The position numbers were made by a program, and so were the translations under genes. The notes under the pieces were generated by a model that was given only the letters and a program-made list of their open reading frames with translations, did not search any database and had not been told where the DNA came from. From NCBI GenBank assembly GCA_032622095.1, contig CP136063.1:37484106-37548105 (forward strand): 64,000 bases of DNA. Reading direction: 5' to 3'. Source of the DNA: Siphonodentalium dalli. Taxonomy: Eukaryota > Mollusca > Scaphopoda > Gadilida > Siphonodentaliidae. Shown in pieces: positions 29,900 through 53,148 of the stretch (positions are counted from its first letter, which is position 1; every line of letters starts with the position of its first letter).

Positions 29900-30228
29900 T
29901 ACGTAGTTGAATCAGAAAGGCTTCGAAACGGATGTGGAAATACAATCTTATCACACCAAATAAAACCGACACGCATGACATTCTATATCTTAAACATGCA
30001 CCAGGTGTAGGCGTGGTGTATACCGTGGCCCATTTCATTCCCACTATCATGGCGCATGTCCACAAACTAGCACCACGAGCATTGTTCTTCTCTGCTGGGA
30101 GATATTCGACGAGACAACTGCGGGGCGTCACGCAGTTTGCTTCGGATCATGGTCAAGAGGTGTGGGTTGATGATAGGGGGTCTGTACGGGGTATAAGGGG
30201 GTGTGTCTTAAGCTCCGCTCATTTCTAA
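29900..30228 (+). pseudogene. Unrecognised coding-like remnant, plus-strand arm of the inverted pair
   Basis: The plus-strand frame 29932-30228 is open for 98 residues and includes LYLKHAPGVGVVYTVAHF and PTIMAHVHKLAPRALFFSAG. The DNA matches the complement of 29050-29330 in many blocks ('cacaaactagcacca/cg', 'catttc.ttcccactatcatg'). About 570 bp separates the arms. I cannot name the protein; it may be part of a multi-copy element. Confidence 0.35.
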
Positions 30229-30479
30229 AGGTTTCACACTGCGTCAATGGGTCCTTTGTCCCCCTTTGTTTCGCCCTATTGTCTTAATGGGCCAATGGTA
30301 GGGGTTTATTAGGGGTCCTTATTGTATGAAAACCCATCCTTTTACTTTTTACTTATATGATAGGTAGAATGAATTAATGAAGCCCCTCCTTTTCGTTCTT
30401 AATTATTTGATAGGTTTTAATTAATTAAAGTCGCTCATTCTTAATTATATGATAGGGTACCGAAACTCCTCCTTATTCG

Positions 30480-30860
30480 ACCCAACAATGGCCACCAGAA
30501 TTATTCTGATAACCGAGCGCCAATGATAGAAACACACGTGAATCGTGCAGCTGTTTGGACCACGCTATCCTGAAACAATGGAGTACCGCCACAATTATTT
30601 AGCGTCACGCACGCCTCGTGCACCTGCTTAGACCGCGCGTTTTCGATGCACCTGCAGAGTCACCTGGTTAGACCACGCTATCCTGAAACAATGGAATCTT
30701 GCACCTGCAGAGTCACCTGGTTAGACCACGCGCTCCTGAAACAATGGAGTCCCGCCACAATTATTTAGCGTCACGCACGCCTCGTGCACCTGCTTAGACC
30801 GCGCGTTTTCGAAAGCGTGCCCAAACCTGACTAATTTATTCACCCACACCACACGTTCCC
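30480..30860. repeat. Short tandem duplications, GC-richer patch
   Basis: Repeated phrases 'gtcacctggttagaccacgc', 'tcctgaaacaatggagtc' and 'gcctcgtgcacctgcttaga' occur two to three times with a period of about 100-180 bp. The patch is richer in GC than its surroundings. Non-coding. Confidence 0.75.
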
Positions 30861-31809
30861 CGAACAATGGAATCCAGCCCTTAAATTGGCATTATCAAAT
30901 CCGGAAATCATAAGGGAATCAATCAAAAACGACTTCCGGATATGATTGACATCTAATGGACAAACATATTTACCATATAAAAGGCTTATGTATCTCAACA
31001 ATGTTATTACAGTTCGTCATTTCGGATGCTCACAACGTATTATAAGGTATGTCTTTATTTATAAAAAGTATATTAGTAAGCCATTTATATTGGCCCTTAA
31101 ATGTCATTACAATGTTATTGTAAACAATGTTACTCACTATTCAAGCAATATTCCCCAATTTTACATAAAAAACACTTTCGAGTTTCCCCATTTGAATATT
31201 TTTCTACATTCTTTGACAATTTTATCATTTTTAATATGTGTTAAGCCAATGCATTCTCTTATATATGTGAGGCGACCTATCGCTTAATTGTATACGCTAA
31301 CTATGAATGCAGATGGCCGATCACAAACTTTTGAATAGAGAGAAGGCTATTATCGATCGCCTAATTCTACACGCAGTCAAATTTCAATGAATGAGGAATG
31401 CTGTTGTCATTGTGATGTTTATAGTATTCCGTAGTAAATGATGGATTTAAATTGTATAGTAAATAACGATCAACGCCGCTGTCATGGTAAATCTTTATGC
31501 GGTGCATATGACCTTGTATTTAAAAGGGCAAAAACTGTTTGTTAGTTGAATGCATACATATTACGCTCTCATTTTGAACTTGCCTGATGTCCATTATCTC
31601 ACCGATTAAGGGCCAGAAATGTTCTATATATGTGTTAGGTTACTTGGTATTATAATGAAATGTGTTAGAAAATATATTGCATTAAAATGTGCATTATTAG
31701 TGAACCCTTTTCGGATCAATAGTGAACTATAACATACATCCTAACTTCATGGTCACATCTTTAGGCACAAATGGGTATTACAATAATACAATAATAACAT
31801 TATACATAT
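30861..31809. other. Gene-free stretch upstream of the PC4/polymerase pair
   Basis: One 113-residue frame (30946-31287) is rich in Ile, Tyr, His and Phe, with no family resemblance; it is probably chance in AT-rich DNA. Confidence 0.4.
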
Positions 31810-32282
31810 TTATTCAGCCATAGATCCACAACATTTTGTACAAGTCATATAACTCTCCTGGTTTCCGTGCGAAAATGAGCAAGGAATAAAATCCTTAAAG
31901 TCGGGAATAGCGTTAGAAATGTCATTCTTGATAGAACGAATAATGTCAAATTCAGCCTCACTTAAATAAATCCATGCTTCGATGGTTTCATTTCAGCATC
32001 ATTTTTATAGAATCTTCTGACGTGTATTAATCCATAGTCACTCGAGTAGCATAGATACCAGTCACTCCCTATATGATATTCCACCGAACGTTTCTCTGAT
32101 ATCGCCTCTTTAATGTCATCTAAGAATGAACTCATATTGTACCATTCATCTCTGTCCAAAGCAACGCCATACTTGTCAGGAAATATTCCATCATTAAATC
32201 TTCTTATATGTATTTTGTGACCTTTGAAGTCATTGACAGTTACGAATTTCTGGTTCCCAATTTGATGTTTATATACGTCCAT
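31810..32282 (-). pseudogene. Double PC4-like (coactivator p15-type) protein, frameshifted
   Basis: The start is taken as ATG at 32282 (MDVYKHQIG), about 50 bp after a minus-strand TATA box. PC4 folds bind single-stranded or melted DNA and act in transcription, replication or repair. Two PC4-like repeats are visible: residues ~12-60 (VNDFKGHKIHIRRF...PDKYGVALDRDEW) and ~75-140 (GLIHVRRF...EMKPSKHG, then YLSEAEFDII in a shifted frame). The tail has a C-x3-H-x8-C-x2-C pattern (PCSFSH...MTCTKC), perhaps zinc-binding. A one-base loss near 31970 breaks the frame in the second repeat; without it the protein would be about 155 residues. I recall similar double-PC4 proteins in invertebrate genomes. 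Divergent from the polymerase at 32774. Confidence 0.75.
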
Positions 32283-32773
32283 GTTCACCGAATGTTATTC
32301 AATAAATGACACCCTTATTCAAACTGCCTCTTATTTATACATAATATTAGCCAATCATATCCCTTTATTGGGTCATGTCTAAAAATAGAATTTACGGGTA
32401 TGAGTCATGGCTATACTTAGCCGACCTAAGCTTATTTTCGTAACGTGTTCAGACCTGCCTTTTTCAACATTGGATGAATCACGTATGAGTCATGTCTATA
32501 CATCGTACTTGCCCAATCATATCCCGTTATTGGGTCATGTCTAAAAATAGAATTTAAGGGTATGAGTCATGGCTATACTTAGCCGACCTAAGCTTATTTT
32601 CGTAACGTGTTAAGACCTGCCTTTTTCACCATTGGATGAATCACGTATGAGTCATGTCTATACATCGTACTTACCCCATCAAATCCCTTAGGTCATGTCT
32701 ATAAATAGCATTTACTTCATATATAAGTCCTACCAACCGTCCATCATTCTTATTACTCATTTACTTCCAGAAT
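32283..32773. promoter_or_regulatory. Bidirectional promoter region with repeats, AP-1-like sites and two TATA boxes
   Basis: Nearly 490 bp between the two divergent start codons. A ~162-bp unit beginning CCAATCATATCCC occurs at 32351 and 32513, with a partial third at about 32676. The palindromic AP-1/TRE core TGAGTCA occurs four times (32401, 32486, 32563, 32648), two per full unit. TATA boxes: TATAAATAA on the minus strand at 32331-32339; TATATAAG at 32720-32727 and TATAAATAG at about 32699 on the plus strand. In the two full units the last sequence reads CTAAAAATAG. Function is inferred from arrangement. Confidence 0.65.
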
Positions 32774-34887
32774 ATGGCGGCTCAACAGATTGCTTACTCT
32801 TTGTACCAAAACGGTGTTCAGGCTGAAAACTTCGCCCTCAACTCGCTTAACAATGGACAATCTGTCAACGTTGAGGTTTATAATCAATTACTTCAACTCG
32901 AAAGGACGAATCGACAGCCTGCGATATATTTACCACAGGGATCTATGCAGCATGCACAGCAGCCTATAGTGAATTATCAACAACCTACAGCTCAACAACA
33001 GTTTCAACCAGTATATTATGCACAACCGACGCAACAACAAGTTGGCATACCCTACCCACAACCTCAGTATATGGTGCCTAGTCAACGACAACCACAGTAT
33101 ATAATGACTACTCAACAACCTCAGCATACAGTACCTAGTCAACAACTGCAGTATATGATGCCTACGCAACAAGCGGCTCAATTTATTCAGGTACCACCCA
33201 TCACCGGGACGGGACAAATGGCGACTAACGCACCAGCGTCTCAACCACCTAATGACGCCACACGTGCAACGGATGTGACTCCATCAGCGCAACCCTCGGA
33301 CGTTACTCAGGCGACTCAACCATTCGATGTCATTCAGTCGACTCAACCATTCGATGTCACGGAACAACTTAATGCAAGTGAATCGTCAACTTCTAGTCCA
33401 TCATCAACTACTCAACAATCCGCTTCTACTCAACCATCATCAACTGATACTCAACAATCAACTGCTGCTCAACAGTCAACTTCTAGTCAACCATCAACTT
33501 CTAGTCAACCAACCATTTCTACTCAACCATTGACTTCTACATCACACGGAAAGCCATATTCCATCACTTTAAGAGACATTAAAACATTCAAACACGGTGC
33601 GTTCGAAAACATCTATGACATCAAATTCGACAGCAGTCTTATGGGGAAAAAAATTGTCCTATTACACGACGAATTATTAGCTATGTTCCGGGACGTTATG
33701 GCTAGTGTTAGAGGTCATAATGATCATCTCGGCCGTGTCACAATTCGAACGGATCAACTGGACAGAGAAATCACAACAGGTTTGAAAGATTGGAAAAATT
33801 TAACACCGGAATTAATTATGGAACATATCACCAACGTTTTAACATCACACGAAAATATTAATTTAGACCATTCATTCGTCGTCACTGTCGGTGCCATAAA
33901 AGCCCCTAATGGCGGAAAAGGTGGCCGAGTTTTCGAAGGACCTTCTTCTGTATTTAAAAAAAATTCTATGGTTGCCATCAAGAATGATGATGTCACGTGT
34001 ATGGCCAGAGCGATTATCGTCGCTGTCGCTAAAATAAAAAAAGTATCAGATGAGGAATGGCCTTCAGTGAAAGAACAATATCCATCTAAATCAAGACTGG
34101 ACATATTTTTACAACATCATATCCTTTCCGATACTTACTACAGACATCTCAAAAAGACCACGTGCGACCATCAGAAGGTCGCGGCCATAGCGCTACTAAA
34201 TGAACTGGAATTACCTACCGATGAACCCGGCTCATTGATACAACTTCAACACTATGAGCACTTCTGGCATATTAATATCATCGTGTTATCTGCAGACTCT
34301 GGAAACAAAGTCATCAGGGCATCTTCCAACTATGACAACAACATATATCTATATCTACACGATCATCACTTCGACGTCATAAACAGTCCCACAGGATTTC
34401 ACAATTCGGCATATTGGTGTGAGAAATGTTTAATTCCATACAATGAGAAAGACAAACATCTATGCCAGTATATATGTTTCACGTGTAAAGATAAGGAGTG
34501 TATCGAAAATGGACCGCTATCTTGTATAAAATGCCATCAAAAGTGCAATTCAATGGACTGTTTCGAAAAACACAAGACCGGTAACAAACCACTATGTGAC
34601 CGCTATTGGAAGTGTACCTCCTGTTTTAAAGTTGTGGCTGTGGGAAATAGGGATATGGATAAAGACCCGCATAGGTGTTATGAATGGAAATGCAACCAAT
34701 GTAAGGTCTGGATCGTCGGTAGTCACGACTGTTATATCAGAGTGGCATCCAAGAAGGAAAAAGTGCAGAAGTTTATGTTTTATGACTTTGAAACCTGCCA
34801 GGACAAGACGTACCGATGTCCAAATTATCAACCGGCTGGCCAGTGTCCTTCATGCACCGACGAGCAATCGTGCAACACTTGTAAAAG

Positions 34888-35041
34888 GTACGTTTTATTA
34901 ACAATGCTTTGACAGAATATATTGTTATACTCTATCTTGACTAATTCTATTTTTTAGATGCAAGCATACTACATCGCCATATATGTATCAATAAACGAAA
35001 TATTTACCTATCATTGTATATCTTGACTAATTCTATTTTAG
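34888..35041 (+). other. Intron 1 of the polymerase gene, with a doubled acceptor
   Basis: Donor AAAAG|GTACGT at 34888 and acceptor 'ctaattctattttag' at 35041 join AAA AG to A TGT, keeping a C-x2-C pair (CNTCKRCVSC). A near copy of the acceptor ('ctaattctattttttag') lies at 34957, also followed by ATG; using it leads to a stop after a dozen codons. Confidence 0.8.
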
Positions 35042-35351
35042 ATGTGTATCCTGTAAGCTCCCATATTGTGGATTAAACCGACATTTGCCCTGTTACGTCG
35101 TCGCTCAATCAGCGTGTGAAATACCAGCATGGATTTACCAGTAAACACACAGTCAAAATGCGACAGCTGCGGGAGTCGATGTGAAATATGTGGGAAACGT
35201 GACAAAAAGAAGCAGTTCATGACCAGGCCTTGCGAGGAATGTGGACAACGACAATTCGAAGCTAAAGGGCCATCCACACTCCAACAGTTCGGAGATTGGC
35301 TGTTTAATGATGCTCACAAAGATTTCGTCATTATAGCACACAACAGTAAAG

Positions 35352-35596
35352 GTAATTACACATTTTCTAGGTTATCATTTATTACACACCATCCACAAAT
35401 TACTAAGTCATTTATTACACACAACATACATTATTAAATTTCTATGTTATTACACACACCACCCACATTATTAAATTGCTATGTTATTACACACACAACC
35501 CACATTATTAAATTTTTATGTTATTTATTACACACCACCCACACACAGCCCACATTATTAAATTTCTAGATTATTAATTTTGCTATTTTTTCCTAG
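35352..35596 (+). other. Intron 2 of the polymerase gene, with an internal repeat
   Basis: Donor AAAG|GTAATT, acceptor TTTTTCCTAG|GG; splicing restores HNSKGYD (Exo II). Inside are four copies of a ~40-bp unit with 'ttattacacacacc(a)cccac' and 'attattaaatt'. Confidence 0.85.
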
Positions 35597-35788
35597 GGTA
35601 TGACGCTGTATTTCTATTGGAATATTTAATGGACCGTGGCACACATCCATCTCACCTAGTCTATTCTGGCACAAAAATTATGCTGATGAAAACCAAACAC
35701 AATCAACGTGTGATAGATTCACTCAATTTCATAGCTATGAGACTGGCGGCTTTGCCTCGGGCGTTTGGTTTGACAGAATTAAAGAAAG

Positions 35789-35902
35789 GTGAGTGACAAT
35801 TATATGGACATTATTATTTATATGGGCCGAAACTAATCTTATTTTTCAGCCAAAAATTAGTGGCCTATTTAATAATATTCGTTTTTATTTTGGTCTTTCT
35901 AG
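35789..35902 (+). other. Intron 3 of the polymerase gene
   Basis: Donor AAAG|GTGAGT and acceptor TCTTTCTAG|GT; splicing gives ELKKGHFPHFYN, a phrase typical of this polymerase family. Length 114 bp. Confidence 0.88.
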
Positions 35903-36510
35903 GTCATTTTCCACATTTCTACAATACAGAAGCCAATGAAAAATACAAAGGTCCCTACCCACTACCTGAATACTTCGGCGTCGACACTATGTCTGTAGCA
36001 GGGAGAGAAGAATTCATGAAGTGGTATACTAGTAAGAGTGGCGAAACATTCTGCATGGAAACAGAATTAAAGGGATATTGCAGGTCGGATGTAGATATAT
36101 TGCGCCGTGCGTGTATCTCCTTCAGGAAAATGTTCTTGGATGTCACGGAGGGAAAAGTAGACCCTTTCAACTTCACCACTATTTCAGGGGCCTGTATGTT
36201 CGCGTACAAAACATTGTTTCTAGAAGAGACTTATACAGTGACTGTTGATGCCGAGGAAAATGTCCCTATGATCAAGGCGAATGATGAATGTCGCCTTCTG
36301 CTAAATGGTGAATGGGTAGATGCTGCTGATTATGATGTAACTGATGAAAAATTTATCAGCACACCCCTCGCCAAAGTCACACCGTCATCCGGTGATAAGC
36401 ATTCCCTGGCCTCCATACAGTGGCTCGAAACATAAAAATCTCGTATATCAGATGGGAGAACTAGGAATGTAAATAAAAATAACCAAATAAAATCTCAAAA
36501 GGGGCCACCA

Positions 36511-39500
36511 TTGTATTCTGGAATAAAATCAGGTAAAAATGATTTTAAGAGAGGGAAAATTGAACAGAAGAAGTTGCCTAGTGTACCAGGAAAAATTAAA
36601 CTCGATAAAACAAATCCAAATGCAATAATCGAGCAAAAGAAACAAACTATCACTCATAAGCAAGAAGTGAACACTAAAAGTAGGGATTTTATGAAACACA
36701 AAAACATTGATATGAAGTGTGTAACAAAGACACCTGAATTTAAAATTAGTAGCACAAATTATAATTATCCCGGAGAAACTGGGAAATTGTTAGATGAACA
36801 TGTACCATGTTCCATTGTAATAATGATTAGAAAACAAAGGTTAAGAGCTTTGATGGATAGTGGAGTTGATTGTTCACTAATTAATATAAACTTGTATGAG
36901 AAATTACAAGAATGACCCAAACTTATTAAGAAACAAGCAACTGTTACGTCAGCGAGCAATGACACATTAGAAATAATAGGGTATATAAACCTCGATTTTA
37001 AAATAAACCAACTAAAGGTTATTCATAGGTTATATGTAACTAAGAATTTAAACTGGTCACTTATACTTGGACGAGATTTTTTAAGAGACAATGGAGTAAG
37101 AATGTATTTTGATTTGGGAGCCATGAAAATTAAAAATCAGTTAGTGGGTCTCGTACCAGATATCCATATCGCATCTTTAATACGCCTGAAGGCTAATTGT
37201 AAATTAAAGCCTAGGAAAGGTGCCATTTGTTCTGCTAAAATCGTTGGAGGAGCTAAGATGTTTAAATCTCCATTCATAATGGCGACTTGTACAGATCAGG
37301 GATTTCTCAGTGAACATCCCGGACTCATGTTGGAAGAGTCAATAGCGACAACTAAAAGCGATTGTATTCCCGTTAAAATCATTAATCAAACTGACAGGCA
37401 TTATAATTTGAAACGTGGCTGTGTTGTGGGGAAAATATGTCCTATGCAAGAAGCAGAAATAAATCAAATTTCTAATTCTTTTGAAATGGGGGAGGTGCGT
37501 GTCGATGAGAAAGAAATTAATGCCCCACAAGAACATTTAAAGGTGGTCACTGAATTGGTATTGAAAAATCAGGATATTTTTGCTGCAAACGATAGACAAT
37601 TGGGGGAAACACCAACATATAAAATGAATATAGACACTGGAAATCATGAAACGATCTCACAAAAACCTTATAGAGTACCTTTGCACAGGAGACAGCTATA
37701 TAGAGATGCTATTGATTCAATAGAAAACGCAGGAATAATAACCAAATCTAAGAGTCCTTGGTCAAATGCTTGTTTTATGATTCCTAAAAGTGATGGTACA
37801 TGGAGATTTGTTTGTGATTTTTAATCTTTAAATAAGATAACAAAGACAATTTGTTATCCTTTGCCTATAATTGATGATATAATTTCGGAGTTAAAGGGAT
37901 CCAAAGTGTTCAGTCTATTGGACGCAAGACAAGGCTATTTTGCCATACCTATCAATGAAAAGGACGGAGAAAAGACTACATTTACTTGTTTCTATGGTAA
38001 CTGGTTTTTTAATCGCACTGCATATGGGTTGAAGAACGCGCCGAGCGCGTACAGTGAGTTGATGGCGATTGTTTTAAAAGGGTTAACGAACGTTATCAAC
38101 TATATTGATGACATATTGATTTTCAGTGATTGTATGTCTAATCACGTGACTCATGTAAATCAGGTATTTCAAAGGCTAAGGGAACATAATATCAAACTGA
38201 AATTAAAGAAGTGTTCATTTTTTAAATCAGAGACAAAATATTTGGGTTTTATAGTAAATGAATCAGGTATAGCACCAGATCCTAACAAGATTAAGGCATT
38301 GAAAAACATGATAGCGCCTACGACAGTCAGAGGATTAAGAGGTTTTATTGGCGCGATGTCGTACTATCGACGTTTTCTCCCGAATTTTAGTGAAATAACT
38401 ATCCCTTTGATTAATTTAACTAAGCAATATGCCAAGTTCAAATGGGACAAACAGTGCCAAGAGGCTTTTGAATATTTAAAAGAAAGTTTACTTGTCATAC
38501 CTCAACTTGCTTATCCAGATTTGAATAAACCATATACATTGTATACAGACAGTAGTCAAAATGCGATTGGGCGGTGTTAGTTCAAAATTGTGATCAAACT
38601 GAGGGAATAAATATACCAAAAAGGAATGAAAAGCTAATCAATTTTCTGTCAGCAAAATTGAGTCCTACACTGTGCAAAATGTCAGTCATTGAAAAAGAAG
38701 CCTATGCAATATTTTATGCTCTTAAAAAGCTGGATCATTATTTAAATGGAGCCACCTTTACTATTAAAATGGATCATCAACTTTAAAATATTTATTAACC
38801 ACTCAATATAATAATCCGAAAATTCAGAGGTGGATGTTGTGTTTATCAGCCTATAATTGCACTATAGAATATCTGCCAGGAAGTCAGAATAGTGTAGCAG
38901 ATTTGTTGAGTAGAATTCCAGACTCAATAGAAACTGAGGCACATCTGTCTGATATCGAGATAAATGATAATAATTTACAAATAAATGTCATTAATTCAAA
39001 TGAAATTCCAAATTTCTCGAAATTTGCAGAATGTAAAGTGGAAACCAATGATCCATTACTCCAAGGCGATTTATCAAATGAAGAAGTCGCTCAATTTAAT
39101 ATGAAAACTGAACAAGGGAAAGACTCAGAAATTCAAGAGGTCATTGCATCATATAAAAGTAATAATCCTCCCCCATCAATTACTAATAAACATTTACTTA
39201 TAGAAGATGTCTTATATTACATATCAAATGCAGACGATGACCCCATGTTGAGATTATATATACCGAGTCATTTGCAAGAAAATGTACTAACTCAATATCA
39301 TGATAAACTGGGACATTTTGGAATTGAACACACATTTCAAATAATTCGTCGTAAATATTACTGGAAAAATATGTACAAGTGTATATATGCACATTGTGAG
39401 AAGTGTGTTATTTGTAAATCACGGAATCTGGTTAAACTGAGACCTCCATTACAAGACACTGACATGCCAGCTTTTACAGGCGCAAAATGGAGTATAGATA

Positions 39501-40603
39501 TATCAGGGCCATTTCCGCGGACATTAGCAAATAATAAATATTTGTTAACTTGGTTTTGTTTGTATAGTGGTTGGATAGAGTCATTTCCAAAAACTAGTAA
39601 AATCACGGATTTGATTATTCATTGTCTTTTGGAAGATATTATACCAAGATTTAGCGTTCCAATACAGATTTTGAGCGACAATGTGAAGGAGTTCACTTCA
39701 AATAATTTTAAAGAAGTATGTAAAAATCTAGGAATAAAATTGGTTTTAACAAATTATTATTCACCTCAGTCTAATAGTAGAAATGAAAGGTCTCACAAAG
39801 TTTTGAATGACATATTATCCAAAATTATGGAAGGAAATCAGCGAACATGGGATCTTGTTTTGGGACAAGCATTATTAGCACATAGATGCATGATTTCAGA
39901 TTCATCTAAAACTTCAAGTTTTGAACTAATGTATTCACATCCACCGGTTTTGCCATTGGATAACATTTTAGCTCCAGACTAAAATATATGGGAGATGAAA
40001 TGCACCAGATTACTCTTCAAGCACAACACAGAGCTTTCCGCGCGGTACATCATCACATGAAAATTGCTAAGCGAAAACAGAAGCAGCGAGATTTTAGAAA
40101 AAAAGGCCCTGTTTCATTTATTATTAAGAACTTGATAACAGGAAATATTTTCAAGTGTCACAGCAGAAATTTACGTCACTCCAATATGGAAAATACCTAA
40201 AAAGACATTAACTCGTCGAACCAGACAACAACAATTGCTTTGTCCGGATAGTGATGAAGATATTCGATCGAGCGAAGATGAATCAGAAAATCAAATGCAG
40301 ACTATAATAAATAGGCATAAAATTCAAAGACCAGCGGCAAATAGTGATTTGGAAGACGAATTGCCGTTATGTGAGCTTAGAAACCGTCTTAGAAATGCGG
40401 AACGCGAAACTTCGGACATAGACAGTGAAATTATTCCCTTGAGTGAACTTCAACGGAAGCTAAAAAGGGCTAATCGTAGAGATGGCCATAAAATTACAGT
40501 AATGTCCGACGATATGAGTGCACAAAATTATAAAGACACTGGTAACACAGAATCCATAATTGAAGTAGATACCGACGTATACATGTCAAGTGAAGAATTT
40601 TGA
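36511..40603 (+). pseudogene. pol: Gypsy pol polyprotein (PR-RT-RNase H-IN), six lesions
   Basis: Domains in order: retropepsin-like protease (ALMDSGVD; ILGRDFL near 37070); reverse transcriptase (DGTWRFVCDF, LLDARQGYF, YIDDIL at about 38099); RNase H (TLYTDSS, EKEAYAI, MDHQ); zinc-binding HHCC (HDKLGH...CEKCVIC); DDE integrase (WSIDISGPF, ILSDNVKEF, NERSHKVL). Catalytic residues in RT and IN are kept, but the usual Gly of the SDxGxEF motif is Val. Lesions: TGA at 36913, TAA at 37822, and single-base frameshifts near 38570, 38780, 39979 and 40140-40200. After the integrase comes a charged, Ser/Glu-rich tail ending VYMSSEEF at 40603. The lesions show an old, dead copy. Confidence 0.9.
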
Positions 40604-50515: not shown

Positions 50516-53148
50516 TTGGTCGGTTGGGTTTCTCGAATACACATCAACATAAATGCTCGGTTGGATTACATCAGGACAAGAAAGATAACTCCATCTTTAA
50601 AACTGATGACAGGTAGATTCTCACTGGGCGATGTTCAGGGAAGTAACTCTTTAAATCTCAAAACCTTATTGCATGGATTACCAGACGATGGTAATGAGAA
50701 CATGTGCTCACCATGTAGCTTTGCTAACCTCTCTTGTGATTATTACTCACCGTTGCAACTACAGGAAAATATAGATGTCTCATAATCTGATTTTTCAATT
50801 CTTGGTCTAAATTGCCGAAGCCTGAATGCTAACTGGGATCCACTTATAAATCTCCCAACAGATATAACTAACTCTAAACATCCTATCGATATACTAGCTC
50901 TGACGGAAATATTCAAAATACGAGAAGAATATTCTCTTCCTGGGTATCATCAATTCCAATTCATATCACGGCCAGATGACGATGATGACCTAACGATATT
51001 CATCCCACATGTTATTGAGACTATATTCATAGAAATTGACTCGTGGCACTCATCGTGTGCAGTGGCATCCATCTACAGACCAAATACGGCCCCTCATGCA
51101 GATATCGATATATTTATAGATAAAATTTCAAGTGTGGTTGAACAATTAAATGATTCAGGGACAAAAGCATATCTCATAGGAGACTTCAACATCGACTTGC
51201 TTAACTTTCAGTCGCATACGAAAACTAACAACTTCATTGAAACTATGTTTGAAAATGGATTCTTACCTGCAATTACCAAACCTACACGTGTAACCGACCA
51301 CTCGGCAACACTCATTGATAATATTTTTACTAATAACAATGTTTCCCGTGCCGAAACTGGGATAATCCTCTCAGATGTGTCAGACCATTTTGCTACATTT
51401 TATTCCGAATATCACGATCATAAGTATATAAAAGCGAGCAGTCCTACCGAGAAACGTATAATGAGTAAAGAGAACACAGACAAATTTAAATCAATACTTC
51501 AACAACAAGATTTTCGATATGTCTTCGATAGTACTTCACCAAACCAAGCTTATGATAATTTTCTTTCAATTTATATATGGGCGTTTAATGAATCATTTCC
51601 ATTGGTCCGATCTAAACCACCAACTAAATCTATAAAGAAACAACCTTGGATGACAAAAGGTCTCATTAACTCCTCCTTAGTTAAGAATAAACTTTACATA
51701 ACAAAACTAAAAGCTCCTTGTGATAACAACGCTGAGAAATATAAAATATATTGTCGAATATACAAATCCTTAATTAGGAAAAGCAAAAAACTATACTACG
51801 ACAATATTCTCCACGAAAATAGATTTGACATGCGACGTACATGGATCATCCTGAAAGACGCTCTTAAAGTAACAAATAACACTCCAAAAATACCAACTAA
51901 CATATCAAATGGAGACATTATAATTTCGCAACCAGAGAAAATAGCTCAAGAATTTAACGATTATTTTGCGAAAATAGGTAAAAAAAACTATCTAACTGAT
52001 TCCAATGCCAAAAACTTTTTCATGTTCCCAACAGATACAAATGAAGTTTTGAAACTCTCGAATGACATCACTGGAAAAGTAACCACAGATATCAATAACC
52101 TGTCATCAAAATTAATGAAACAGACCATACCCGAAACGTCACCAGCGTTAACGCATATATTCAATCTATCATTTAAACAAGGTATCTTTCCCGATAGGAT
52201 GGAAATATCAAAAGTAATTCCACTTTATAAAAGTGAATCTCCCGATAAAATAACGAACTATAGGCCAATAAGCATTCTGCCCGTTTTCTCGAAGTTGTTG
52301 GAAAAACTCATGCATAAAAGGCTTTTTTCGTTTCTCGAGAAACATGAAATCTTACATAAAAATCAATATGGCTTCCGTAAGAATCACTCTACCATACATC
52401 CTTTGATGCACCTTCTAGATCATGTAGCAACAAATAATGACAAGCCAACGAAGGATTCTACATTAGCGATTTTCATAGACTTATCAAAAGCATTCGATAC
52501 AATTAACCACGATATTTTATTGAAAAAGTTAGAATATTATGGAATTCGGAGGGTTTCCAATGAATGGTTTAAGAGTTATTTAAAGGGGAGAAAACAATAC
52601 GTTGATTGTCTTGGTCAAACGTCCGGTTTTGCGAATATAACGTGTGGTGTGCCCCAAGGATCTGTTCTTGGCCCGAATATTTTTCTTCTGTATGTTAACG
52701 ATATGCCCAAATGTACCTCGATGAACTTACTATCATTTGCCAATGATACCACGCTTTACTTTTCTGGTCATGATAGGAAACAGTTAAAAAAATCATCAAC
52801 AGCTGAACTAAAAAACATTTTTGAATGGTGTTGTTGCAATAAACTATCTATCAATGCAACTAAAAGTAAATTCATGTTAATCCACCCCAGAGGTAACGAG
52901 GACAAGTAGAGAAATTTCACACTGAAATTGAATAACATGGAACTAACTAGAGTTGGGAATCAAATGCGAGTGAAATCAATACAAAAAATTAGGCATTTTG
53001 ATCGATGAAAATTTGACTTTTAAAAACCATATATCAATGATACAACGTAAACTGTACCACACTCTCTACTTACACACTAAATATCGAGTAGCTAAATTTG
53101 GGTGGTTAAAATATTCCAACGACTTTTATAGCATTATAAGGAAATAAC
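50516..53148 (+). pseudogene. LINE ORF2 (APE-type endonuclease and reverse transcriptase), inactive
   Basis: One frame runs from 50516 to 52909 with a single TAA at 50783. N-terminal part: cysteine-containing CSPCSF and CDYYSP. Endonuclease: LGLNCRSLNANWD, ILALTE, ASIYRPN, GDFNIDL, SDHFATF; the usual Gly-Gly stretch after FISRPDD is lost. Reverse transcriptase: NYRPISILPVFSKLLEK, YGFRKNHST, IFIDLSKAFDT, GVPQGSVLGP and, in place of FADD, FAND (Asn codon at 52742). After 52909 the frame shifts and LGILIDENLTFKNHIS continues to 53148. It resembles jockey/CR1/L2-group LINEs. The missing catalytic Asp, the stop and the frameshift make it dead. No target duplication or tail identified. Confidence 0.88.

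Follow-up and report, generated by a model that had tools for sequence, protein, structure and literature searches.

A double-PC4 gene paired with a Polinton-type polymerase in the scaphopod Siphonodentalium dalli

The PC4-polymerase locus

We analysed a stretch of 64,000 nucleotides from the scaphopod Siphonodentalium dalli (assembly GCA_032622095.1, contig CP136063.1, positions 37,484,106 to 37,548,105), hereafter the window, in which a broken Polinton is represented by its left part. This element begins at position 30168, with the same terminal sequence as the full-length copies described below. An initial annotation had noted a minus-strand frame with two PC4 domains and a plus-strand family-B polymerase, facing away from a repeated region; both genes were confirmed, at 31810-32282 and 32774-36430. 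Families of related elements are numbered 1-7 within this analysis, family 1 being that of the window. The locus has the following features.

30168..30908, no strand: left terminal inverted repeat, outer end TGATGATAG..., tip shared with full-length copies; inner edge set by alignment with a right-end repeat from a different copy
31810..32282, minus strand: double-PC4 gene (PF02229), start codon 32282, stop 31810, 157 codons in other copies
32283..32773, no strand: divergent promoter region, from the PC4 start codon to the polymerase start codon, 491 bp
32332..32339, minus strand: TATA box facing PC4, TATAAATA
32336..32714, no strand: 2.4 tandem copies of a 162-bp unit, two of them complete (32351-32674) and 97% alike
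32401..32654, no strand: four TGAGTCA sites, at 32401, 32486, 32563 and 32648
32442..32611, plus strand: two AACGTGTT boxes, at 32442 and 32604, the only plus-strand copies in the 64-kb window
32700..32707, plus strand: TATA box facing the polymerase, TATAAATA
32774..34887, plus strand: polymerase exon 1, with a Q/S/T-rich leader, N-terminal extension, Cys-rich region and Exo I motif
34888..35041, plus strand: intron 1, GT-AG, position common to families 1, 2 and 3
35042..35351, plus strand: polymerase exon 2, frame change private to this copy; open in 3/3 other copies (L016, L019, L022)
35352..35596, plus strand: intron 2, GT-AG, containing a tandem repeat of 37 bp; observed only in family 1
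35597..35788, plus strand: polymerase exon 3, matching P0001 from residue 805
35789..35902, plus strand: intron 3, GT-AG, common to families 1 and 2
35903..36430, plus strand: polymerase exon 4, truncated, palm domain missing
36436..40603, plus strand: Gypsy-type retroelement frames (RVT_1, RNaseH, H2C2, rve) abutting the cut polymerase, outside the element

The PC4 gene of the window is split between two frames. The first, ending at 31962, spans one domain and part of the second and matched the Pfam PC4 family PF02229 in two stretches (E 4.9e-10, above the cut-off) as well as human PC4 (1pcf; E 2.5e-4). The second PC4 copy runs on in another frame, after a frame change near 31965, to the stop at 31810. 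At 8/8 other loci examined (L001-L007 and L028) the gene was open over 157 codons, and a frame of at least 157 amino acids (aa) was open in 20 of the 21 closest PC4 rows, the window copy being the sole exception. A programmed frameshift was considered and dropped because the other copies are open.

Between families, the PC4 proteins were 24-78% identical, and 26-38% identical to the human domain, whose tryptophan was kept in all families aligned. Cellular PC4/Sub1 belongs to the same domain family (PF02229), but the element protein has two domains in tandem. It also differs from the cellular protein in a conserved C-terminal tail after the second domain, PC-x(3-5)-H-x(1-2)-[N/D]Q-x5-C-x2-C, observed in families 1, 2, 3, 6 and 7 (read in the C-termini of L019, L025, L027, L026 and L013). 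This Cys/His tail is a possible metal-binding motif. A PC4 search among 5.8 billion proteins returned 1 candidate and none that was significant, and queries or alignments of PC4, polymerase and capsid against viral contigs gave no confirmed match.

The 712-aa open reading frame (ORF) of the polymerase and exons 2, 3 and 4 were collinear with P0001, an intron-free metagenome PolB of 1160 aa that itself matched PF03175 at E 2.8e-21. The window polymerase matched PF03175 weakly (3e-5 and 1.1e-4, both below the cut-off); on sequence grounds, we assign it to the protein-primed family-B type. Pattern searches in six frames found none of the palm motifs A, B and C of the window polymerase, with a few stray matches elsewhere in the window. 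Motif A was present in L015, L019, L022 and L025, where motifs B and C were not found by the patterns used. The polymerase alignment gave no match in bacterial and archaeal genome contigs. The predicted fold of the N-terminal region, with a mean predicted local distance difference test (pLDDT) score of 45, was too uncertain and was left unused, and the OTU domain reported for this region in the accessible part of PMC11071308 was unconfirmed.

Decay alone was rejected as an explanation of the gaps in the polymerase because GT-AG splice sites are common to other copies. Exact pattern searches, to which variants are invisible, located the splice sites of intron 1 in the window, L010, L016, L019 and L022, those of intron 2 in the window, L016, L019 and L022, and those of intron 3 in the window, L015, L019 and L022. 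Intron 2 is absent in L025 and also, judging by adjoining matches, in L027 and L032. The conservation of introns between families would imply nuclear transcription and splicing, and copying of the element through DNA.

The earlier description of the intergenic region, about 490 bp with 162-bp repeats, TATA boxes in both directions and four TGAGTCA sites, held as well. By chance, TGAGTCA/TGACTCA is expected at a mean of 0.066 per 491 bp, and at least four sites arose in 0/20000 simulations. Half of the sites are due to duplication; at least two per 162-bp unit arose in 7/20000 simulations. The sites are a feature of family 1 and uneven (0 to 6 per 1.5-kb piece in L037-L048), and there were none between the two genes of L025 (family 2) and L027 (family 3), where the spacers carry TATA sequences and look repetitive by eye. 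All three families share AACGTGTT, with two intergenic copies in the window, four in L025, and two direct and two inverted in L027.

The window copy is damaged. Each gene carries one private frame change, and the polymerase homology stops at about 36430-36444; Gypsy reading frames continue from there on, and the catalytic part of the polymerase is gone at this junction. The copy has a left terminal repeat only, its right end being missing. The rest of the element was not found at 36.5-50 kb, nor, in comparison with pieces L019 and L020, at 1-30 kb or 50-64 kb of the window. Queries with the element's TATA-binding protein (TBP) homologue, integrase, ATPase and capsid protein gave no match to the window at 1e-3.

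Recurrence of the pair and full-length elements

The host genome comprises 2,226,750,531 bases in 9 contigs and holds at least 150 PC4 matches; 150 of 662 candidates were scored, of which a minority was looked at further. Among the matches listed, 21 (window included) were counted by eye as close copies, with at least 104/105 residues and at least 92% identity. The divergent polymerase start lies beside PC4 at 19 of these 21, namely the window, L001-L007, L037-L046 and L048, being present only in part at L045 and L048. The divergent pair was also observed in family 2 (2/2 loci, L025 and L030), family 3 (2/2, L027 and L032) and family 4 (1/1, L034, with a decayed polymerase), whose PC4 proteins share 37-47% identity with the family-1 protein. 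The initial annotation had proposed to ask whether the pair recurs in intact Polintons with terminal repeats, integrase and capsid genes. Within this genome the pair recurs in the 19 close copies and the three further families, and the full-length copies described below have these features; the outcome named as speaking against it, a PC4 gene syntenic with host genes alone, did not appear. We regard it as almost certain that PC4 is a gene of the element.

PC4 genes without an adjoining polymerase have other neighbours in the stretches read: an IVa2/A32-like ATPase in family 5, a C2H2 zinc finger in family 6 and a BIR-RING gene in family 7. The adenovirus-IVa2/A32-like ATPase next to the family-5 gene (L024:3279-4409, L029:496-1302) represents another viral gene context for PC4.

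Two full-length family-1 elements were read as separate pieces, and their lengths were obtained by addition. The C8 copy (L018-L020) measures 15,949 bp from repeat to repeat, with target duplication TGCCAA, and the C2 copy (L021-L023) 17,244 bp, with CAGATG. Target duplications of 6 bp flank 3/3 family-1 elements with both ends read, the third (GCTGTT) being the C9 palindrome described below; that of the family-2 element is imperfect. The terminal inverted repeats of the C8 copy aligned over 478 bp with 97.9% identity. The element tips read TGATGATAG, and their repeated trinucleotide would suit the sliding-back start of other protein-primed systems.

The gene order of the C8 copy is PC4 (minus), polymerase, ATPase, BIR-RING, TBP, integrase, a penton-like ORF and the capsid protein. 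The integrase matched PF00665 (1.8e-11), with a chromodomain at 0.02, below the cut-off. The ATPase matched Pox_A32 (3.2e-4) and AAA_14 (1.1e-3), both below the curated Pfam cut-offs, and the BIR-RING protein matched BIR (1.1e-18) and RING (3.7e-12). The TBP homologue matched PF00352 in two stretches (6.3e-15) and TBPs in the PDB over residues 12-171 (1.3e-13), which identifies it by sequence as a putative TATA-DNA-binding protein with two TBP repeats. All three full family-1 copies read encode it, as does one copy of family 3 (L051). The positions of the two genes are as follows.

L020:957-1490, L015:2636-3169, L023:662-1195, L051:7621-8154: TBP homologue, open frame in four copies of two families
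L020:26-649, L051:8465-9088, L013:6981-7709: BIR-RING (inhibitor-of-apoptosis-like) cargo, present also in palindromic family 7

The capsid protein had 193 relatives at E 1e-3, and the best 120 of the 193 include at least nine animal F54H12.2-like proteins. The element's own protein gave no sequence match in the PDB, its fold being predicted by way of the homologue P0008. The model of P0008 (27 relatives, pLDDT 82) matched double jelly-roll capsid proteins of iridovirus, PBCV-1 and mavirus, with E 1e-14 to 1e-13, and on this model the element protein is assigned to the double jelly-roll major capsid proteins. The penton-like ORF of 132 aa, between integrase and capsid, had no Pfam match; similar stretches occupy the corresponding position in elements of Solemya velum (E ~1e-11). 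A simple motif search for an adenovirus-type protease in L015, L019, L020, L022 and L023 gave only antisense matches inside the polymerase, while the Solemya velum elements showed weak Peptidase_C5 matches. Among genome contigs of bacteria and archaea, the capsid alignment found two (L035, L036) of a Solemya velum gill symbiont assembly with an animal-type Polinton integrase and capsid, probably host DNA in a bacterial assembly. Both contigs begin inside the integrase and are uninformative on PC4 or TBP.

In family 1, the PC4 gene sits immediately internal to the terminal repeat. In the family-2 element it lies inside a terminal repeat of ~4.1 kb, so that two PC4 copies flank a single polymerase. 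At the C9 locus (L009:7879 to L010:8491), two left halves form a palindrome whose arms, 99.8% identical over at least 3280 bp, stand 310 bp apart. This palindrome probably predates insertion, since it has its own 6-bp target duplication. The family-7 palindrome read (L012-L014) has arms of ~8.4 kb, 99.5-99.8% identical and ~1 kb apart. Such palindromes would be expected from protein-primed replication if the displaced strand folds back. PC4 was retained in the palindromic derivatives read (L010, L012-L014, L026). Among the matches listed, we counted by eye at least 12 PC4 pairs facing outwards, 7.7-8.7 kb apart (L012-L014 and 11 sites).

Joint inheritance and the proposed role of PC4

Family 1 was compared with family 3, represented by L032 and L051 (PC4 over 112 codons). 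The PC4 proteins and polymerase exon 1 were each 46% identical (DNA 56% and 55%), whereas the other module, which is inverted, gave 99% for BIR-RING, 93% for TBP, 93% for capsid and 83% for integrase; the polymerase C-terminus was 67% identical. Between families 2 and 3 the two genes are less diverged (PC4 55%, polymerase 66%). PC4 and polymerase exon 1 of families 1 and 3 are equally diverged and the other module is partly shared; in consequence, the elements are mosaic, with PC4 inherited in the polymerase block. This location favours a replication role over a partnership with TBP. In the single family-2 element read over its whole length, the polymerase and PC4 (one copy per terminal repeat) are retained, and queries with TBP, integrase, ATPase and capsid gave no match in its stretches. 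In L052, the second family-3 piece, the integrase is truncated and TBP gave no match.

The ratio of nonsynonymous to synonymous change (dN/dS) was below 1 wherever both types of change occurred. For PC4 of family 3 it was 0, with 8 synonymous and 0 nonsynonymous changes over 127 codons; family 6, with 2 nonsynonymous and 0 synonymous changes, had too few to judge. The ratio was 0.16-0.71 for polymerase pieces, 0.31-0.51 for TBP, 0.17-0.19 for integrase and 0.31-0.57 for capsid. The between-family value for TBP was 0.31 (12 synonymous, 15 nonsynonymous).

We propose that PC4 and the protein-primed polymerase may be two early genes that share a repeated TATA promoter, are transcribed divergently from it and pass on as one replication module. 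Protein priming at the terminal repeats would start the polymerase, which would displace one strand. The double-PC4 protein, with two putative single-stranded DNA (ssDNA)-binding folds and the Cys/His tail, would coat the displaced strand, protecting it and preventing its self-annealing. We infer ssDNA binding, strand coating, early timing and co-expression of the two genes. From the sequences, coating of ssDNA during strand-displacement replication of the element is the role that we favour, by a modest degree. PC4 and RPA reportedly act on ssDNA in SV40 DNA synthesis, going by a title cited in PMC9223095, which we count for a replication role.

Several observations weigh against this role. 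No polymerase was found beside PC4 at L028 and L047, where 3.9 and 1.5 kb, respectively, of the relevant flank were read, or at any of the 6 loci read in families 5 (L024, L029), 6 (L026, L031, L033) and 7 (L012-L014), some of these stretches covering one side only. The modules are no clean blocks, as the penton-like ORF is 50% identical between families 1 and 3, and the co-divergence of PC4 and polymerase could come from mere physical linkage at the element end. The dN/dS of PC4 is not uniformly low (0.43 in family 1, 0.52 in family 2), and the 6 nonsynonymous changes of family 5, with no synonymous one beside them, are too few for a judgement. PC4 DNA among L001-L007 is identical save one change, a sign of recent spread or gene conversion that is uninformative on selection. 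Moreover, the best-known function of cellular PC4 is transcriptional coactivation, and a TBP homologue is encoded in the same element.

PC4 might instead be a transcription factor that, with the element's TBP, directs host RNA polymerase II to the TATA promoters of the element and serves an early-to-late switch. The presence of TBP in the full family-1 copies and L051, its constraint between families, the TATA boxes at both sides of the window intergenic region and the polymerase introns conserved between families, with the nuclear transcription and splicing that they imply, are all compatible with such a function. However, TBP sits in the exchanged module and PC4 in the polymerase module; the family-2 element keeps PC4 without a TBP match, and L052 has no TBP match either. 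We consider a transcriptional role, the main alternative, rather unlikely. Decidedly improbable, in our view, is a captured host PC4 with a host-directed purpose (DNA-damage response or chromatin), or a passenger persisting by way of the terminal repeat. Its position just inside or within that repeat, its retention in the palindromic derivatives read and the presence of other cargo (BIR-RING) that looks host-directed would fit this origin, but the frame is open in 20/21 closest rows, family 3 is constrained, and PC4 is kept across seven families at 24-78% identity. The possibility that a host PC4 gene merely neighbours a polymerase fragment by chance is negligible and is refuted by the pair at 19/21 close copies, its occurrence in four families and the three family-1 elements with 6-bp target duplications.

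Relation to known systems

The elements resemble vertebrate Mavericks/Polintons, as described in the accessible part of PMC8097293, in their 6-bp target duplications, terminal inverted repeats and trinucleotide repeat at the tip. The lengths of 15.9 and 17.2 kb fall inside the Maverick range of 12.7-24.6 kb given there, and the two gene modules facing the centre were seen here in family 3. Nevertheless, there are differences from the same account: intact vertebrate Mavericks lack introns, whereas the polymerase introns here are conserved between families; PC4, TBP and BIR-RING are absent from the core genes that it names; and the family-2 terminal repeat of ~4.1 kb exceeds the range of 46-1447 bp. 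A protease was not recognised here by the simple motif search. Given the conserved introns, some Polintons with near-identical copies would need the spliceosome, in contrast to intact vertebrate elements.

Adintoviruses, according to the available text of PMC11071296, share with these elements a PolB with an N-terminal extension, defined as OTU-like there, and an rve integrase; the chromodomain match here is weak. PC4 has 0 occurrences in that text. Mirusviruses likewise encode a TBP (PMC10132985), but they belong to a different virus phylum and the portion of that paper at hand contains no PC4. Our literature search, with most subscription journals outside its reach, found nothing tying PC4 to Polinton/Maverick. 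In the parts of the literature available on Polintons and TATA binding, TBP was assigned to mirusvirus-like elements, mirusviruses or a cited title, and not to Polintons. A double PC4 locked to the polymerase, with TBP in the other module, is an arrangement testable with single purified proteins.

As reported in the accessible part of PMC9223095, the bay scallop has five AiPC4 genes, cited there as GenBank ON121988-ON121992, three of them with two PC4 domains, and two of these three are single-exon genes in a scallop-specific clade; bivalves have 2-18 PC4 genes. That text treats AiPC4 as a host family expansion, and the words transpos* and intronless are absent from it. By their description, the double single-exon AiPC4 genes look like the element PC4, and the published bivalve "PC4 expansions" may in part be Polinton cargo. 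The element PC4 would be a simple alternative to the published claim of a stress-driven PC4 expansion in bivalves. More tentatively, and with less than even confidence, we envisage an element group that carries a viral RNA polymerase II factor pair (TBP and double PC4), controlling its own promoters and coating its own replicating DNA, with much of the bivalve PC4 and inhibitor-of-apoptosis expansions being unrecognised Polinton cargo.

Two further clusters of PC4 loci represent old elements: five decayed copies spaced 9.2-9.6 kb apart at C3:53714994-53753314, and six loci within ~0.8 Mb of C5 near 224 Mb. Elsewhere in the window, a frame at 50786-52906 encodes an endonuclease and a reverse transcriptase of the long interspersed nuclear element (LINE) type.

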